Source: Gammaproteobacteria bacterium
GTDB lineage: Bacteria; Pseudomonadota; Gammaproteobacteria; Ga0077554; Ga007554
Direction of reading: 5' to 3'
Length of the DNA stretch: 64,000 nt
Assembly (NCBI GenBank): GCA_021731145.1
Contig: JAKFXX010000029.1
Location: forward strand, 1-64,000
Below the pieces are notes generated by a model. It searched no databases, was not told where the DNA came from, and was given only the letters and a program-made list of their open reading frames with translations. The translations under genes were made by a program, and so were the position numbers. This document shows positions 30,471-43,090 of the stretch, in pieces. Position 1 is the stretch's first letter. Every line of letters begins with the position of its first letter.

Positions 30471-31130
30471 CTAGCTTTTCTTGCCCAACTCCTTCAGCCG
30501 TTCATACAATTTCCGTTCTTCCGAAGATAGCTGCTCCGGTACATGCACGTTAATGCGTATCAAAATATCTCCAAGGCCAGGGCTGCCGAATTGTGGCAGA
30601 CCTTTTCCGCGCAGGCGCAATATGGTATCAGGTTGAGTTCCAGCGGGGATGGTGACGGTGGTAGGGCGGCCAAGGGGTGGGCACCTCGCGGGAGGCGCCG
30701 AGCACGGCATCCGTAAGTGGGATGGTTTCCTCGCGCCATAGGTCCGCGCCGTCACGCACAAAGCGAGGGTCCGGCGCGGTGCGTACTAACACGAGCAGAT
30801 CGCCGGGAATGCCGCCCGGCTCCTGGCTGGCGCTTCCTCTCCCGGGGATGCGTAGCACCAGTCCTTCTTCCGCCCCTGGCGGGACGGTTACCATGAGAGT
30901 CTCGTGCCTGGGAATATTGCCGTGTCCGGCACATTTTGGGCAGGGTTGATCAATGATGCTGCCGCGCCCGTGACAGTCTGGGCAGAGTGTTGTCTGCTGG
31001 AAAAATACGCCTCCTTCCCGTCGACTGGTTGTTTTGCGCCCCGTTCCCTGGCAGGTGTCGCAGCGGCGCGGCGAGGTGCCGGACTTGGCGCCTGAGCCAT
31101 GGCAGTCTGGGCAGGGCGCCGTGCGGCTCA
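30471..31130 (-). pseudogene. dnaJ: DnaJ remnant (zinc-finger and C-terminal domains)
   Basis: From 31130 downward the sequence encodes SRTAPCPDCHGSGA, CDTCQGTGR, CPDCHGRG and CPKCAGHG (the four zinc-finger repeats), then the substrate-binding domain to GASREVPT. One extra C near 30672-30678 shifts the frame, after which GRPTTVTIPAGTQPDTILRL continues to the natural end EERKLYERLKELGKKS. The J domain and G/F linker are missing. It is therefore a truncated and frameshifted DnaJ, probably once the partner of the DnaK at 33968. Confidence 0.85.
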
Positions 31131-31175: not shown

Positions 31176-31757
31176 TTATGTCAATGCCTGCTGAACGCTC
31201 ACCCGCTTTTCATAGATGCTGCTAATCTTCACGCCATCCCATACATAACACAAATGCCTCTCTTGCCGGCAGTTGGAGAGCATAGGTGGGCGGAATACGG
31301 CCGCACACTCGCCGCTATGATAGCGTACGCTGTCGTAGACGATACCCCAAGACCCTTCAAGACGTAAGCGGCGGGCCAAGGTTTGCGCCGCAGAGTAGTC
31401 GTCCGGATCATAGAGTTCGGGTGTGCTTTCTTGCATGCCGCGGATATCGTGTAGCGCACCATCGAGATCAGTGAGGTAGACGCGCATATCCAGCCCCATT
31501 TTTGTCTCGCGGGTAGCTAACATGAAGCGTTCGCGCTGATGGCAGGTTTCAGCAATGGCGGCATCGAGAGTATTCGCGCAATAGAACACGCCGTAACTGC
31601 CATCGCTGAAGCGGCTTCCAACCGGGTTGGGATGAGTGAAGGCGGCCATGATGCTGCTGGTTCCCGGACCACTGATGCGGTCGGCGGGTGGGATTAGCTC
31701 GATCCTGCCGACCTCGTCGCGGATGCGGTCGTTGGTCATGCCTTCGAGTTCGATCAC
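31176..31757 (-). CDS. RES-domain toxin (NAD+-degrading type)
   Basis: The RES domain is seen in ISGPGTSSIMAAFTHPNPVG, RFSDGSYGVFYCANTLDAAIAET and GSWGIVYDSVRYHSGECAAVF, which carry the conserved Arg, Glu and Ser of the fold. RES toxins of RES-Xre pairs deplete NAD+ by phosphorolysis. Family-like sequence (IIWKPCWRLIPSRFPPIQLF...) continues upstream of the GTG at 31757 to about 31870, but that stretch has no ATG, GTG or TTG in frame. The true start may be a rare codon such as the CTG at 31871-31869 overlapping the antitoxin stop, or a small indel may be present. Confidence 0.88.
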   Translation of the reverse strand: MIELEGMTNDRIRDEVGRIELIPPADRISGPGTSSIMAAFTHPNPVGSRFSDGSYGVFYCANTLDAAIAETCHQRERFMLATRETKMGLDMRVYLTDLDGALHDIRGMQESTPELYDPDDYSAAQTLARRLRLEGSWGIVYDSVRYHSGECAAVFRPPMLSNCRQERHLCYVWDGVKISSIYEKRVSVQQALT

Positions 31758-31867
31758 CGCTTCAAGATCGGCGGGGTCAGCGACACGCTCGAACAGTTGA
31801 ATCGGTGGAAAGCGGCTCGGAATAAGCCGCCAGCAAGGTTTCCAGATGATTTGTTTGATTAGGATGT

Positions 31868-32275
31868 TCAGGACCAGCCGCCCCGTTGCGCATCAAGGTA
31901 TTGGCGCACCACATAAAGATCGCTGACATGGCCGGACAGCATCCGCTCCAATGCACTGCGGCCTGAAAACAGCGGCGCGTTATTGGGGCGGGTGATCCAG
32001 GTATCGGCGGCGGTTTCATCGGGCAGAAGGATTTGTAGGGCTTTATAGATGCCCAGGATATAGGAAATGCGTTCCAGGGTATCCTTGGGGAGGGCGACTT
32101 CCGGGTCTTTCTTCCATTTGAAATAGGTAGAGCGAGAGGTGAGGCCGAGCAGGGTCATCTGCTGCTCTACATTAAGGTCCCACATGTCAGCAATGCGGAA
32201 AAAAGTGCGCAGGGCGGGCCCGGACAACGCCTTGCGGTCGATTTTCTTGACCGGATGCGCGATAGATACATGCAT
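31868..32275 (-). CDS. Xre/MbcA/ParS-type antitoxin of RES toxin
   Basis: This 135-residue DUF2384-type antitoxin has an N-terminal helix-turn-helix (NVEQQMTLLGLTSRSTYFKW). The C-terminal toxin-binding domain is ISYILGIYKALQILLPDE...WITRPNNAPLFSGRSALERM. It neutralises the RES toxin encoded immediately downstream and should autoregulate the operon. A strong promoter and a small palindrome lie just upstream. Confidence 0.92.
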   Translation of the reverse strand: MHVSIAHPVKKIDRKALSGPALRTFFRIADMWDLNVEQQMTLLGLTSRSTYFKWKKDPEVALPKDTLERISYILGIYKALQILLPDETAADTWITRPNNAPLFSGRSALERMLSGHVSDLYVVRQYLDAQRGGWS

Positions 32276-32818: not shown

Positions 32819-33955
32819 TCAATCCCATTTGAGGCTGAGGGTATTAGCCGCGCTCAATTCGACTCGGGTTCCGAATTGGGCGCCTTCTCTGTTCAATGTC
32901 TCGGTAAGCCATAACGTGTCCTCTTTCGATGTGCGGTTCAATCTAAAGTGTTTAATCTGCATGGGGATCATATGCAGATCGGTGAGTCTCCCCGTCGACG
33001 GCTCCATGCTCACAAAGTACATCACGGCCAGATCATCCCTGAATTCCTCATGGCCACTGATGCCCTCGTAGTCATTCAAGAAGTCACCGCAGCCATAGAG
33101 TATGGGCTTTTCTTTGTAAATCTCGATTCCCTTTGCATGATGAGAAGAATGACCATGGACGACATCAATCCCCGCCTCGTCGATCAGTTTATGGGCGAAT
33201 AGCGTTTGTTCACGAGGAATGGAGTAACCCCAGTTGTCGCCCCAATGAAGGGAGACTACTGCAAGATCGCCCCGCCGTTTCACGTTACAAACATTCTCCT
33301 TGATATGCCGGACCGTTTCATCCGACAAATCCTTCAACAGATTCACGCCGGGGTGGTCTCCTGCCGCAGCCCAACGTCGAGGAATACCGCTGGTTTCCGA
33401 TCCGCAGGCGAATACCAGAACCCTGCCTTTGCCGGGGATATCCACTATCGCAGGCGCTTCCGCTTCCTGGCGGTTGCGCCCTGCGCCGGTACTTTTCACC
33501 TTCACTTTTTCCAGTGTGCCCAGCGTCTCCGTCAGCCCGGCACGCCCCCAATCCAACACGTGATTATTTGCCAGTGCACAACAATCGATCTTGGCCGCGG
33601 TAAGGCAAGGGATGTTTTTGGGATGCATGCGGTAGTTGATGACCTTGCCTCGCCAATAATCACTGCTCGTGGTGACACTCGTCTCTAAATTGATGATGCG
33701 GACATCTGGTGATACGCGCGCCAGTTCTTCCAGAGCATCCCCCCAGATGTAAGAGAAATCTACCGGTTTTGGAATCGGGCCATGCACCCTCTCCGCCAGT
33801 TCGACATAACCTGTGGCGCTGTGCATGTAAGACTCGTAGAGAACCGGGTCGCTCTGATGCGGCAACACTTGATCGATGCCCCTGCCGGTCATCACGTCGC
33901 CGCACAGGAACAGGGTGATCCGATCAGCATTTATTGACGGCTCAACTATCACCAT
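32819..33955 (-). CDS. CapA-like metallophosphatase-fold protein
   Basis: This 378-residue protein of the CapA/PgsA family has the metal-binding blocks FLCGDVMTGRGID, IINLETSVT, CALANNHVLDWG, VVSLHWGDNWGY and VVHGHSSHHAKGI. The original CapA is involved in poly-gamma-glutamate capsule export, but this form has no signal peptide or membrane anchor and lies in a chaperone operon. A cytosolic hydrolase role is more likely and the substrate is unknown. It follows dnaK by 12 bp. Confidence 0.85.
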   Translation of the reverse strand: MVIVEPSINADRITLFLCGDVMTGRGIDQVLPHQSDPVLYESYMHSATGYVELAERVHGPIPKPVDFSYIWGDALEELARVSPDVRIINLETSVTTSSDYWRGKVINYRMHPKNIPCLTAAKIDCCALANNHVLDWGRAGLTETLGTLEKVKVKSTGAGRNRQEAEAPAIVDIPGKGRVLVFACGSETSGIPRRWAAAGDHPGVNLLKDLSDETVRHIKENVCNVKRRGDLAVVSLHWGDNWGYSIPREQTLFAHKLIDEAGIDVVHGHSSHHAKGIEIYKEKPILYGCGDFLNDYEGISGHEEFRDDLAVMYFVSMEPSTGRLTDLHMIPMQIKHFRLNRTSKEDTLWLTETLNREGAQFGTRVELSAANTLSLKWD

Positions 33956-33967
33956 CGCGGATTCAAA

Positions 33968-35833
33968 TTACCGTGACTCTGTGTATTCTGCATCCACCAC
34001 TCGCCCGCGCGGCCCTGAGCCGCTTGGGCGCGCCTCTCCTGTTGAGGCGCCGAGATCGGGTTGTGGCTGTGGGCTAGTGCCAGCGCTGCTGGTTTGGGCA
34101 TAGATGGCACTCCCGGCATCCTGCAATGCCTTTTTCAGCGTTTCCGCGCGTTTGGTGGCAAGTGCGGCATCGCGCTTGGCAAGTGCCTCACGGGTCTCTC
34201 GCAGGCCGGACTCGATACGTTTGCGTATGTCTTCGTTAAGTTTTGCCCCAAAGTCAGACAATGTCCTTTCTGCCTGATAGCATACTGAGTCTGCCGTATT
34301 GAGCTTGTCCGCCTCCTCTCGGCGTTTCTTGTCCTGTTCAGCATAGTGTGCAGCCTCTTCAACCATGCGCCGTTTCACATCCTCGGGGAGACGGGTGGAG
34401 CCGGTGATGCGCACCGATTGAGATTTGCCGGTGGCGGTATCACTGGCAGAGACGTTGAGTATGCCGTTGGAGTCGATGTCGAAAGTGACTTCGATTTTAG
34501 GTACACCGCGTGGGGCGGGCGGTAGTCCGTCCAGGTTGAATTCGCCGAGGCTGGTGTTGTCGCCAGCCATGGGCCGTTCGCCCTGGAACACATGTATGGT
34601 CACCGAGGTCTGCATGTCTGCGGCAGTGGTGAAGGTCTCTGACTTTTTAACCGGGATGGGCGTGTTGCGCGCGATTAGCGGCGTGGCTACCCCACCAAGG
34701 GTTTCCACCCCCAGTGTGAGCGGTGTGACATCCACCAGCACAATATCGCCCACTTGTCCGGTGAGCACGCCCGCCTGGATGGCTGCACCGCTGGCGACGC
34801 ACTCCATCGGGTCAACGCCCATCTCTGCCGGTCTGCCGAATAGCTCTTCAAAAAAGGCGCGTACCACCGGCATGCGGGTGGGGCCGCCGACAAATATGAT
34901 GCGGTCGATCTGTCGTGGTGTGAGCGCAGCATCGTGCAAGGCCTGTTCCACGGGCGCGCGGCAACGCTCTATCACCGGGCGCACGAGGCGCTCCAACTCG
35001 GTGCGGGTGAAATCCATTTCAAGATGACGTGGTTCGCCTTCAGTAGTCGCCAGATACGGCAGGCTGATATGGGCAGTAGTGCTGGTGGAGAGTTCGATCT
35101 TGGCGATTTCAGCCGCTTCCAGCAGCCGTGCGCTGGCCTTGCGGTTAGTGCGGGTGTCTATCCCCATCTGATCGCGGAAGCGGGCGGCGAGGTGTTCGAA
35201 GATGGCTTGGTTCATGTCTGTGCCACCAAGCTGAGTGTCCCCGCTGGTGGCCTTCACCTCGAACACACCCTTGCCGAACTCCATGATGGTCACATCCAGT
35301 GTGCCTCCACCCAGGTCGATCACCACAATACGCAGTTCCTGCCCCAGCCGGTCAAGCCCGTAGGCCAGCGCTGCGGCAGTCGGCTCATTCACTAGGCGGG
35401 CCACGTCAAGGCCGGCGATGCGGCAGGCGTCCTTGGTGGCGCTGCGCTGGTTATCGTCGAAGTAGGCTGGAACCGTGACTACTGCCTGTGTGACGGGTTC
35501 GCCCAAAAAAGCCTCAGCATCACGCTTGATTTTCTGCAGCAGAAAGGCGGAGAGCTGTTCGGGAGAAAACTCGCGGTCGCGCAGGCGGATTTTCTCGCGC
35601 CGCCCCATCTGGCGCTTGAAGGCCGTGGCGGTCCCTTCCGGGTTCGACGTCGCCTGGCGCCGAGCAGGCTCGCCCACAATCACCTGACCATCGGCAGTGA
35701 TGGCTACATAACTGGGAAAGGCCTTGCCGCCAAGGCTTATCCCCTCGCCACTAGGAATCAGCACGGGTCGTCCGCCGCGCAACACCGCCGCCGCCGAGTT
35801 GGAAGTGCCCAGGTCGATACCGATGATTGCCAT
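33968..35833 (-). CDS. dnaK: DnaK-type chaperone (accessory copy)
   Basis: This 621-residue Hsp70 has the N-terminal ATPase motif [15 protein letters not shown], the phosphate-2 motif [19 protein letters not shown] and [20 protein letters not shown], the linker-substrate domain [14 protein letters not shown], and a C-terminal Gln/Pro/Ser-rich tail ending VDAEYTE. It lacks an adjacent grpE, and its dnaJ neighbour is decayed, so it may depend on co-chaperones encoded elsewhere. AAGGAGG precedes the ATG. Upstream is a perfect FNR-type box at a class II position. Confidence 0.94.
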
Positions 35834-35864
35834 ATTGCCTCCTTACGACTTTTAGAAGATTTTC

Positions 35865-35907
35865 ATTCTAGCGCTGAAAAGACTGCATGGATTTTGATTT
35901 AGATCAA
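35865..35907 (-). promoter_or_regulatory. FNR/ANR box and -10 element of dnaK
   Basis: TTGAT-TTAG-ATCAA (35894-35907) matches the FNR/ANR half-site consensus at all ten positions. On the minus strand a -10 hexamer TAGAAT (35870-35865) follows after 23 bases, the geometry of a class II site centred near -41.5. The expected start is near 35858, about 25 bases before dnaK. This predicts oxygen-controlled transcription of dnaK and the genes after it. Confidence 0.75.
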
Positions 35908-35953
35908 AGTTTGTATATAAAACAGGATATAAAATTCTAGGTGTATTTTTTAG

Positions 35954-36114
35954 CCCGAATGTTTCATAAATTCGCGCGATGATCGCGCAGGATTTTGGTT
36001 GATAGGGGGATTTTGTGAAGGAGCGCCGTAGTGATTCATACGGCCGACTGAACAAAATCACCATAGCGATCAAAAGACCAGCGAGGGCGCGTGTCAATTT
36101 ATGAAACATTCGGG
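35954..36114. mobile_element. 161-bp MITE-like element, IS1380-like ends
   Basis: Perfect 19-bp terminal inverted repeats (CCCGAATGTTTCATAAATT and complement) are flanked by the 4-bp duplication TTAG (35950-35953, 36115-36118). The ends resemble IS1380-family termini as I recall them. It has no coding capacity. It lies in the divergent region between dnaK and hsp20 and separates hsp20 from the FNR-type box. Confidence 0.88.
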
Positions 36115-36207: not shown

Positions 36208-36714
36208 ATGCTTGAATCATTGAAAAAGGTTGGCACGGAAATTGGCAAGGAACTCAACCGGGCATGGGAGAATCTTGCGGAAGGGTGGCGTGAATTAGTG
36301 AGCCGCAGCGGCGATGCCCTGACCCATTTCACTAAGCACAAGGAAATCGAATACGTCGAGGAGACCGCCGCCGGGACACGATTTCCAAGTTGGGGGCTGC
36401 TTGCAGGAGAGTTGAAGGAGACCAAGGATTCAATCGTTGTGCGTCTGGAGATGCCGGGCATGGAAAAGGGGGATTGTGCAATCTCGATTGAAGGTAATAC
36501 CCTGTGTGTGCGGGGTGAGAAGCGTTTTCAGCGAGAGGCAGACGACGGCGTTTATCATGTCATGGAACGTGCCTACGGCAGCTTTCAGCGTGCCATCCTG
36601 CTGCCACATAACGTTGACGCTGATAACGCTAAAGCAGCATACGAAAACGGGGTGTTGACGGTAACTTTACCCAAAACTGGCAGCGCAACGACGAAACGCA
36701 TAGAGGTCAAATAA
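36208..36714 (+). CDS. Hsp20 small heat shock protein
   Basis: This 168-residue protein has an alpha-crystallin domain from about residue 65: KDSIVVRLEMPGMEKGDCAI, LCVRGEKRFQREADDGVYHV and the C-terminal ENGVLTVTLPK. A long charged N-terminal region (MLESLKKVGTEIGKELNRAW) precedes it, and the closing I-x-I motif is modified. It should bind unfolding proteins without ATP and pass them to DnaK. It is 1 base before the thioredoxin gene, so hsp20, trx and the PRPP-synthetase paralogue form an operon. Confidence 0.92.
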   Translation: MLESLKKVGTEIGKELNRAWENLAEGWRELVSRSGDALTHFTKHKEIEYVEETAAGTRFPSWGLLAGELKETKDSIVVRLEMPGMEKGDCAISIEGNTLCVRGEKRFQREADDGVYHVMERAYGSFQRAILLPHNVDADNAKAAYENGVLTVTLPKTGSATTKRIEVK

Positions 36715-36715
36715 C

Positions 36716-37150
36716 ATGAGTGATTCTTTGCATATTGTCTGCCCGCACTGTGATGCGATAAACCGGGTGCCCGCCGCAAAACTAGGGGAGGGTGCCAAAT
36801 GTGGCCAATGCAAGCAACGTTTATTTGGCGGGCATCCCGTGGGACTCACCAGCGCCAGTTTTCAGCAGCATATCGGGCGCAACAGCATACCCGTGGTGGT
36901 GGATTTCTGGGCGCCCTGGTGTGGTCCGTGCCGGATGATGGCGCCAGCATTTGAACAGGCGGCCAGCCAACTTGAACCCCATGCACGGCTGGCAAAGATT
37001 AATACAGAAACAGAGCAGGCCATCGCAGCCCAGTTTGCCATACGCAGTATCCCTACACTGGCGATTTTCAAAGGTGGCCATGAGATCGCCCGCCAGGCCG
37101 GCGCGATGGACCACAGTAGCTTGGTGATGTGGGTGCGTTCGCATGTGTAG
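36716..37150 (+). CDS. trxC: Thioredoxin 2 (TrxC type)
   Basis: This 144-residue protein has an N-terminal zinc ribbon (CPHCDAINRVP...CGQCKQRLF) and a thioredoxin domain with the active site WCGPC in VDFWAPWCGPCRMMAPAFEQ and the cis-proline IRSIPTLAIF. It reduces protein disulfides, and TrxC forms are typical of stress responses. It overlaps the hsp20 operon and precedes the PRPP-synthetase paralogue by 15 bp. Confidence 0.95.
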   Translation: MSDSLHIVCPHCDAINRVPAAKLGEGAKCGQCKQRLFGGHPVGLTSASFQQHIGRNSIPVVVDFWAPWCGPCRMMAPAFEQAASQLEPHARLAKINTETEQAIAAQFAIRSIPTLAIFKGGHEIARQAGAMDHSSLVMWVRSHV

Positions 37151-37165
37151 CCGTGGAGACTTTTA

Positions 37166-38152
37166 GTGGGCGCCGAAGACATCACTCTGTTTGCTCTCCA
37201 TGCCAGCCGCGAATTTGGCGAGAGAGTCAGCGCGCATCTTGGCGTCCCGTTGAGTGATCACGAGGAAAGGGAGTTCGAGGATGGGGAGCATAAATCCCGT
37301 CCGTTGGTAAATGTGCGGGGGAGTGACGTATTTGTCATCCAGTCCCTCTACAGCGATTTACAGCAGAGCGTCAATGACAAACTTTGCCGGCTGCTGTTTT
37401 TTATAGGCGCCCTCAGGGATGCGTCTGCGCAACGTGTTACGGCGATAGTTCCCTATCTTGGTTACGCGCGCAAGGACAGGAAGTCACAGCCCCGCGATCC
37501 GGTGACAAGCCGCTATGTCGCCAGTCTGTTTGAAGCAGTCGGTACAGACCGTGTTGTGACGCTTGATGTGCACAATCTGGCTGCTTATCAAAATGCCTTC
37601 CGTTGCCACGCGGACCATTTGGAAGCCAGAAAACTATTCGTGCAATATTTCGCCGGGCTGGTGCAGGACGCCGAGGTTGTTGTGGTGTCGCCGGATATTG
37701 GCGGCATAAAGCGTGCGGAGCAGTTCAGGCAGGCGCTGAGCCGGGCGCTGGACAAGACGGTGTCCACCGCTTTCCTCGAAAAATACCGCAGCAAAGGAGT
37801 TGTTACCGGCGAGGCAATTGTGGGGGATGTTAAGAACCGGGTGGTTATTATCATCGACGATTTGATCAGTACCGGAACAACCATGGCGCGCGCGGCGAAA
37901 GCGTGTCATGACCTGGGCGCTGTAAAAGTCTATGCCGTGGCATCGCACGGGGTGTTTGTTGGCGCGGCCAGCCAGGTCTTGGGGGATCAGTCCTTGGAGA
38001 AGATCGTGATTACAGACACTATTCCGCCATTCAGGTTTGATCCTGTTCTGGTAAAAGATAAAGTTGTCATCCTGGATGCCGCAGCGCTATTCGCCGAGGC
38101 CATTAAAAGAATCCATTCAGGGGGTTCGCTTGTGGAGTTGTTGGAAATTTAA
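37166..38152 (+). CDS. Ribose-phosphate pyrophosphokinase paralogue
   Basis: This 328-residue protein of the PRPP synthetase family has [20 protein letters not shown], the metal-site [17 protein letters not shown] and the PRPP-binding loop [19 protein letters not shown]. It would make PRPP from ribose 5-phosphate and ATP. The sequence differs from housekeeping Prs at several places (for example [20 protein letters not shown]), and its location with hsp20 and trxC suggests a stress paralogue. It starts at GTG with GGAG upstream. Confidence 0.88.
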
Positions 38153-40208: not shown

Positions 40209-40222
40209 TTGATCTATATCAA
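40209..40222. promoter_or_regulatory. FNR/ANR box between DUF2934 and VOC genes
   Basis: TTGAT-CTAT-ATCAA matches the FNR/ANR consensus at all ten half-site positions. It is 63 bp from the DUF2934 start codon (minus strand) and 127 bp from the VOC gene start (plus strand). AT-rich hexamers such as TTAAAT follow on the minus side, but the -10 is less clear than at dnaK. Confidence 0.7.
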
Positions 40223-42244: not shown

Positions 42245-43090
42245 GTGAAATTGTCAGTAGAAAAATTCCGGGCATGGGAACATAAGTCCATCACCTTGCT
42301 GGGGATGTCAGGTGTAGGCAAAACCCGCCTTTCGGCTATGCTGCGTCAGCGTAACTGGTTTCATTATTCGGGTGACTATCGGATAGGCACTCGCTATCTC
42401 GACGAACCGATCCTGGACAATATCAAGCTCCAGGCGATGCAGATCCCTTTTCTGCGCGACCTGCTGCGCTCGGATTCGATCTATATCAAGAACAACCTCT
42501 CGGTCGACAATCTCAAACCGGTGTCGAGCTTTCTCGGCAAACTCGGCAACCCGGAGCTAGGTGGTCTTTGCTTGCCGGAATTCAAGCGCCGCCAGGAGCT
42601 ACACCGCAAAGCAGAAATTGCCGCAATGCGCGACGTGCCGGAATTTATCAGCAAGGCGCAAGACATCTACGGCTACATGCACTTCATCAACGATGCCGGT
42701 GGCAGCGTCTGCGAGCTCGATGACCCGGAAACGCTGGAAATTCTGGCGCAGCACACCTTGATTCTGTATATCAAGGCGACACAGACCGACGAGCAAGCGC
42801 TCATCAGCCGCGCCGAGGCCGATCCCAAGCCGCTCTATTATCGCGAGTCCTTCCTTGACGAGCAGTTGCAGACCTATCTGCTTGATCGTGGCTTGGCCTA
42901 TGTCGCGCAGATCGATCCCAACGATTTCGTCCGGTGGATGTTTCCTCGGCTGTTTTATTCACGCATCCCGCGTTACGATGCCATTGCAAGCCGTTATTCC
43001 TATACCGTCACCACTGATGAACTTGCTCAGGTTAAGAATGAGGCGGATTTTATCGCTCTGGTGGAGCAAGCCATCACCCGTCAGCCTTAA
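42245..43090 (+). CDS. P-loop ATPase of unknown function
   Basis: This 281-residue protein has a Walker A motif GMSGVGKTRLSAML near residue 20, after KSITLLG. The rest is not one of the common kinase families that I can name; it contains FINDAGGSVCELDDPETLEI and an LYIKATQTDEQALISRAEAD segment resembling nucleotide-kinase lids. It starts at GTG. It is 32 bp before metA in the same direction, and with the unknown gene after metA forms a three-gene unit. Confidence 0.75.
   Translation: MKLSVEKFRAWEHKSITLLGMSGVGKTRLSAMLRQRNWFHYSGDYRIGTRYLDEPILDNIKLQAMQIPFLRDLLRSDSIYIKNNLSVDNLKPVSSFLGKLGNPELGGLCLPEFKRRQELHRKAEIAAMRDVPEFISKAQDIYGYMHFINDAGGSVCELDDPETLEILAQHTLILYIKATQTDEQALISRAEADPKPLYYRESFLDEQLQTYLLDRGLAYVAQIDPNDFVRWMFPRLFYSRIPRYDAIASRYSYTVTTDELAQVKNEADFIALVEQAITRQP

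Follow-up and report, generated by a model that had tools for sequence, protein, structure and literature searches.

In the window, the stretch of 64,000 nucleotides analyzed here, a perfect FNR-type box (TTGATTTAGATCAA, 35894-35907; TTGATCTAAATCAA on the minus strand, 35907-35894) lies between dnaK2 on the left (33968-35833, minus strand) and hsp20 on the right (36208-36714, plus strand). Judged from its setting, the box is probably an FNR site centring a divergent pair of sigma-70 class II promoters for a low-oxygen chaperone set. The intergenic palindrome, TTGAT-N4-ATCAA, is predicted to be common to both promoters, and because this putative site stands between the two genes, dnaK2 and hsp20 are probably both switched on at low oxygen. 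The first-pass annotation had noticed a perfect FNR-type box before dnaK at an exact class II distance. The box itself was confirmed and such boxes occur far above chance in the genome. A DnaK gene does follow it, but this gene is a second paralogue and not the housekeeping dnaK, which keeps CIRCE and sigma-32-like signals. In addition, the divergent hsp20-trxC-prs operon at the same box had been overlooked.

We evaluated the frequency of the palindrome in the window and in the genome. Ten boxes with at most one mismatch were observed in the window, where 2.1 would be expected, and this number was not reached in any of 100 shuffles. The whole genome contains 18 perfect boxes, against about 1.3 expected from the base composition of the window, and the reversed control pattern was absent. 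Most of the perfect boxes are intergenic (11/18), and the seven found inside genes are probably non-functional. A near-box at 42476, which is inside an ORF, was discarded as a likely chance match.

Both flanks of the box carry a -10 element scoring 5/6, at distances of 22 and 23 bp. On the hsp20 side, the predicted TAAAAT (35930-35935, plus strand) is 22 bp away, and the start predicted near 35942 would put the box centre exactly at -41.5. On the dnaK2 side, the -10-like TAGAAT described earlier was found after 23 bases on the minus strand (35870-35865), and with the start predicted near 35858 the box centre would be at -42.5, which misses the class II position by a single base. The exact class II distance, which had been assigned to dnaK, thus belongs to the hsp20 side. 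No other convincing promoter was detected upstream of dnaK2 besides the box-linked one.

The 22-bp spacing is also the one that this genome prefers. The 11 perfect boxes between genes have 22 flanks, and in 9 of these a -10 scoring 4/6 or higher stands exactly 22 bp away. Spacings of 21 and 23-26 bp yielded 0-2, and over the scanned range of 10 to 39 bp no spacing other than 22 bp exceeded 5. The 14 flanks of intragenic boxes lack such a -10 at 22 bp. The excess at intergenic boxes indicates, from within the genome and across all of it, that this organism uses class II architecture.

We then compared the locus among relatives. In G001 and G003, the two sister species that keep the locus, the box and both spacings are identical to those in the window, and in the three-species intergenic alignment (window, G001 and G003, with a MITE of the window left out) the box lies inside the longest invariant run, 36 of 216 columns. 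The hsp20-side -10 reads TAAAAT in G003 and TAGAAT in G001, and at the dnaK2 position both sisters have the weaker TAAGAT. In both, hsp20 is 93% identical to that of the window. The state of dnaK2 varies: in G001 it has shrunk to two small remnants with the box and the hsp20 side intact, in G003 it is frameshifted, possibly by an assembly error, and in G002 it was not found. The dN/dS values between the window and G003 are 0.12 for dnaK2, 0.13 for hsp20 and 0.14 for trxC, so dnaK2, with a value like those of its neighbors, was under purifying selection until recently. The intergenic region of a family-level relative, G007, could not be aligned.

Farther away, the 200 bp upstream of 52 more distant dnaK2 orthologues contained 8 boxes with at most one mismatch, an approximately 10-fold enrichment (binomial p 2e-6), and in four of these 8 a -10 scoring 4/6 or higher stands 21 bp away. 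The other 44 orthologues, including the nearest ones from Sulfuricella, have no box within the same 200 bp, and FNR control of dnaK2 would therefore be lineage-specific and not ancestral. With only 8 of 52 at this threshold, the box was rejected as a general feature of dnaK2 orthologues.

The dnaK2 product (621 aa; Pfam HSP70, 3e-201), with its ATG at 35833, shares about 49% identity with the canonical DnaK that the genome also encodes (G000:C24:30932-32731), and its gene lies outside the hrcA-grpE-dnaK-dnaJ context. The housekeeping operon of that order is located elsewhere, at G000:C24. There, hrcA is preceded by a CIRCE-like element (16/18), and grpE and dnaK by sigma-32-like promoters (CTTGAAA-N13-CCCAATTT for dnaK, sigma-32 score 14/15), but the operon has no FNR box. 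Upstream of dnaK2 and hsp20, the best score for the sigma-32 pair (CTTGAAA / CCCCATNT) was only at shuffle level, and no CIRCE was found. Since the boxed gene is dnaK2 and the canonical operon keeps its heat-shock signals, this is not a case of a rewired core heat-shock operon. The earlier proposal of an FNR-type promoter in place of a sigma-32 one holds as a prediction of class II type, with no sigma-32 signal nearby, a cognate FNR encoded in the genome and conservation in two sister species.

The genes following dnaK2 were also inspected. A gene for a CapA/PgsA-like protein (PGA_cap; 32819-33955, minus strand; Pfam PF09587, 1.8e-83) starts 12 bp downstream and is likely part of the dnaK2 operon. 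Most relatives have an intact dnaJ2 downstream of dnaK2; in the window, tblastn with the DnaJ2 of L040 detected a broken remnant (30486-31113, minus strand) covering about residues 141-353 of 365, with one frameshift and without the J-domain. A RES-domain / Xre-MbcA-ParS pair, resembling a toxin-antitoxin system, occupies the expected place of the N-terminal part of dnaJ2 (31176-32275).

On the other side, hsp20 encodes a small heat-shock protein (Pfam PF00011, 2e-24) and is followed in its operon by trxC for thioredoxin 2 (36716-37150, plus strand; NCBIfam PRK10996, over cut-off) and by a ribose-phosphate pyrophosphokinase-like gene, prs (37166-38152, plus strand; TIGR01251, over cut-off). 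Inserted in the hsp20 leader is a 161-bp MITE-like element (35954-36114, plus strand), which shows perfect terminal inverted repeats of 19 bp (CCCGAATGTTTCATAAATT) and a 4-bp TTAG target duplication. Four full-length copies with 92-100% identity are present in the genome, and the element is missing from the hsp20 leader in G001 and G003. Its insertion in the leader could alter hsp20 expression.

Three proteins of the Crp/Fnr family are encoded: an FNR (L011, G000:C22), a CRP and an FtrB/DNR-like protein (L012). L011 is the sole bona fide FNR; it exceeds the curated Fnr cut-off, carries an N-terminal C-x2-C-x5-C motif with a downstream Cys and the FNR-like recognition helix ETISRLL, and has solved FNR structures as its best matches. 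From these features, together with the box and its surroundings, we infer FNR binding, activation, the start sites and the physiological role, as follows. When oxygen falls, L011 would assemble a 4Fe-4S cluster, dimerize and bind TTGAT-N4-ATCAA. The bound FNR would then contact RNA polymerase in both directions, for hsp20-trxC-prs at -41.5 and for dnaK2-capA at about -42.5, the hsp20 arm being the one with the better geometry. The small heat-shock protein, Hsp70, thioredoxin, and the PRPP synthase-like and CapA-like proteins would form a low-oxygen set for protein protection and survival, separate from the heat-inducible hrcA-grpE-dnaK-dnaJ operon. A wider reading, which we put forward tentatively and hold to be somewhat short of an even chance, is that Hsp70 is split by signal: heat would call on the canonical dnaK and oxygen loss on the sHsp-Hsp70 pair, through one FNR dimer shared by two divergent class II promoters, in a module that was recently recruited and is already decaying in the genus.

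The box might instead really serve hsp20-trxC-prs, with dnaK2 activated weakly or incidentally. This is unlikely, although it is the reading to which the exact 22-bp geometry and better conserved -10 of the hsp20 side, the G001 locus with its dnaK2 remnants, and the missing box at most dnaK2 orthologues all point. Against it, a 5/6 -10 on the dnaK2 side stands no more than one base from the class II distance, no other convincing promoter was found on that side, and all three species retain the 23-bp spacing even though dnaK2 is intact in only one of them.

The identity of the reader could also differ, such that another Crp/Fnr protein, for example L012 (responding to NO or another signal) or CRP, acts in place of the oxygen-sensing FNR. 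DNR-type regulators share the TTGAT-N4-ATCAA consensus, and L012, although it has no Cys cluster, carries an E-x2-S-R recognition helix resembling that of FNR. However, L012 stays under every curated family cut-off, CRP prefers TGTGA half-sites, and the box matches the FNR consensus perfectly in a genome with a bona fide FNR, which makes a different reader improbable. A chance palindrome without function would be in line with the intragenic location of 7 of the 18 perfect sites, but is hardly credible for an intergenic site that has two -10s at class II distances and does not vary among three species, in a genome where such boxes are enriched. The divergent promoter pair under FNR thus remains the reading that we prefer.

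FNR control of a chaperone had been called unusual, but it is less so than assumed, since published work describes Hsp20 genes under FNR/FixK and predicts Anr boxes in front of dnaK (PMC11784457, PMC6515984, PMC6588701). In Rhizobium leguminosarum, a reporter for the sHsp gene rlv_1399 showed about 50-fold microaerobic, FnrN-dependent induction (PMC11784457). That gene, like hsp20 here, is an sHsp gene with an FNR-type anaerobox, but it belongs to an Alphaproteobacterium, has two anaeroboxes and has no divergent dnaK reported. In Bradyrhizobium diazoefficiens, low oxygen induces Hsp20 (blr7961) and CBS-domain, host-attachment, USP and J-domain proteins, several of which are direct FixK2 targets (PMC6515984; predicted FixK regulon in PMC2908626). 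Similar gene types adjoin boxes in the present genome, whereas FixK2 is not an Fe-S FNR and no dnaK2 with an FNR box has been described there. For Pseudomonas, the portion of PMC6588701 consulted predicts Anr boxes ahead of dnaK and groEL; the TTGATNNNNATCAA-type box in the dnaK promoter region of three species is similar to ours, but the gene is called simply dnaK in that portion, without mention of a paralogue or a divergent arrangement. In micro-oxic Burkholderia, the DnaK, DnaJ and GrpE proteins go up (PMC3759415). As FNR/FixK control of Hsp20 is known experimentally and Anr boxes before dnaK are predicted, the present locus belongs among known kinds. No published description of an FNR site shared by divergent hsp20 and dnaK genes was found in a literature search that was incomplete. 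If the proposed control is true, the locus would be a clean example in which a spare Hsp70 and an sHsp are placed under an oxygen sensor through a single shared site, and would support the idea that low-oxygen chaperone capacity is provided apart from the heat-shock response. The sister species, in which dnaK2 decays while the box is retained, would then offer a natural comparison as to whether the hsp20 arm alone is selected.

The surroundings may be a counterpart of low-oxygen islands with Hsp20 and stress proteins, such as lxa and the DosR-type dormancy loci. The stretch to the right of the hsp20 operon contains CBS-domain, phosphoribosyltransferase and DLH-like genes along with another perfect box, and the cluster as a whole combines Hsp20, CBS, phosphoribosyltransferase, CapA-like and DLH-like genes with two boxes, with no USP among the scanned genes. 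The low-oxygen-activated lxa locus of Burkholderia cenocepacia, which contains Hsp20 and stress proteins, differs in having six USPs and, according to the part of PMC6127331 consulted, no dnaK. The CBS protein of the window is similar to M. tuberculosis Rv2626c. DosR is a response regulator and not an FNR.

The second perfect box of the window (40209-40222) is located between DUF2934-CBS-kinase genes on the minus strand and a glyoxalase-like gene on the plus strand, and neither of its flanks has a -10 scoring 4/6 or higher at 21-23 bp. Other intergenic perfect boxes in the genome precede a second hsp20, cytochrome c, polX and FBPase genes. One of them separates another hsp20 from a 2-hydroxyacid dehydrogenase gene (L122, G000:C12:20000-24000, local ~1985), and towards this hsp20 a TATATT -10 follows after 22 bp. 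Another is found between divergent genes for DNA polymerase X and an archaeal-type fructose-1,6-bisphosphatase (L128, G000:C33:21000-25100, local ~2046).
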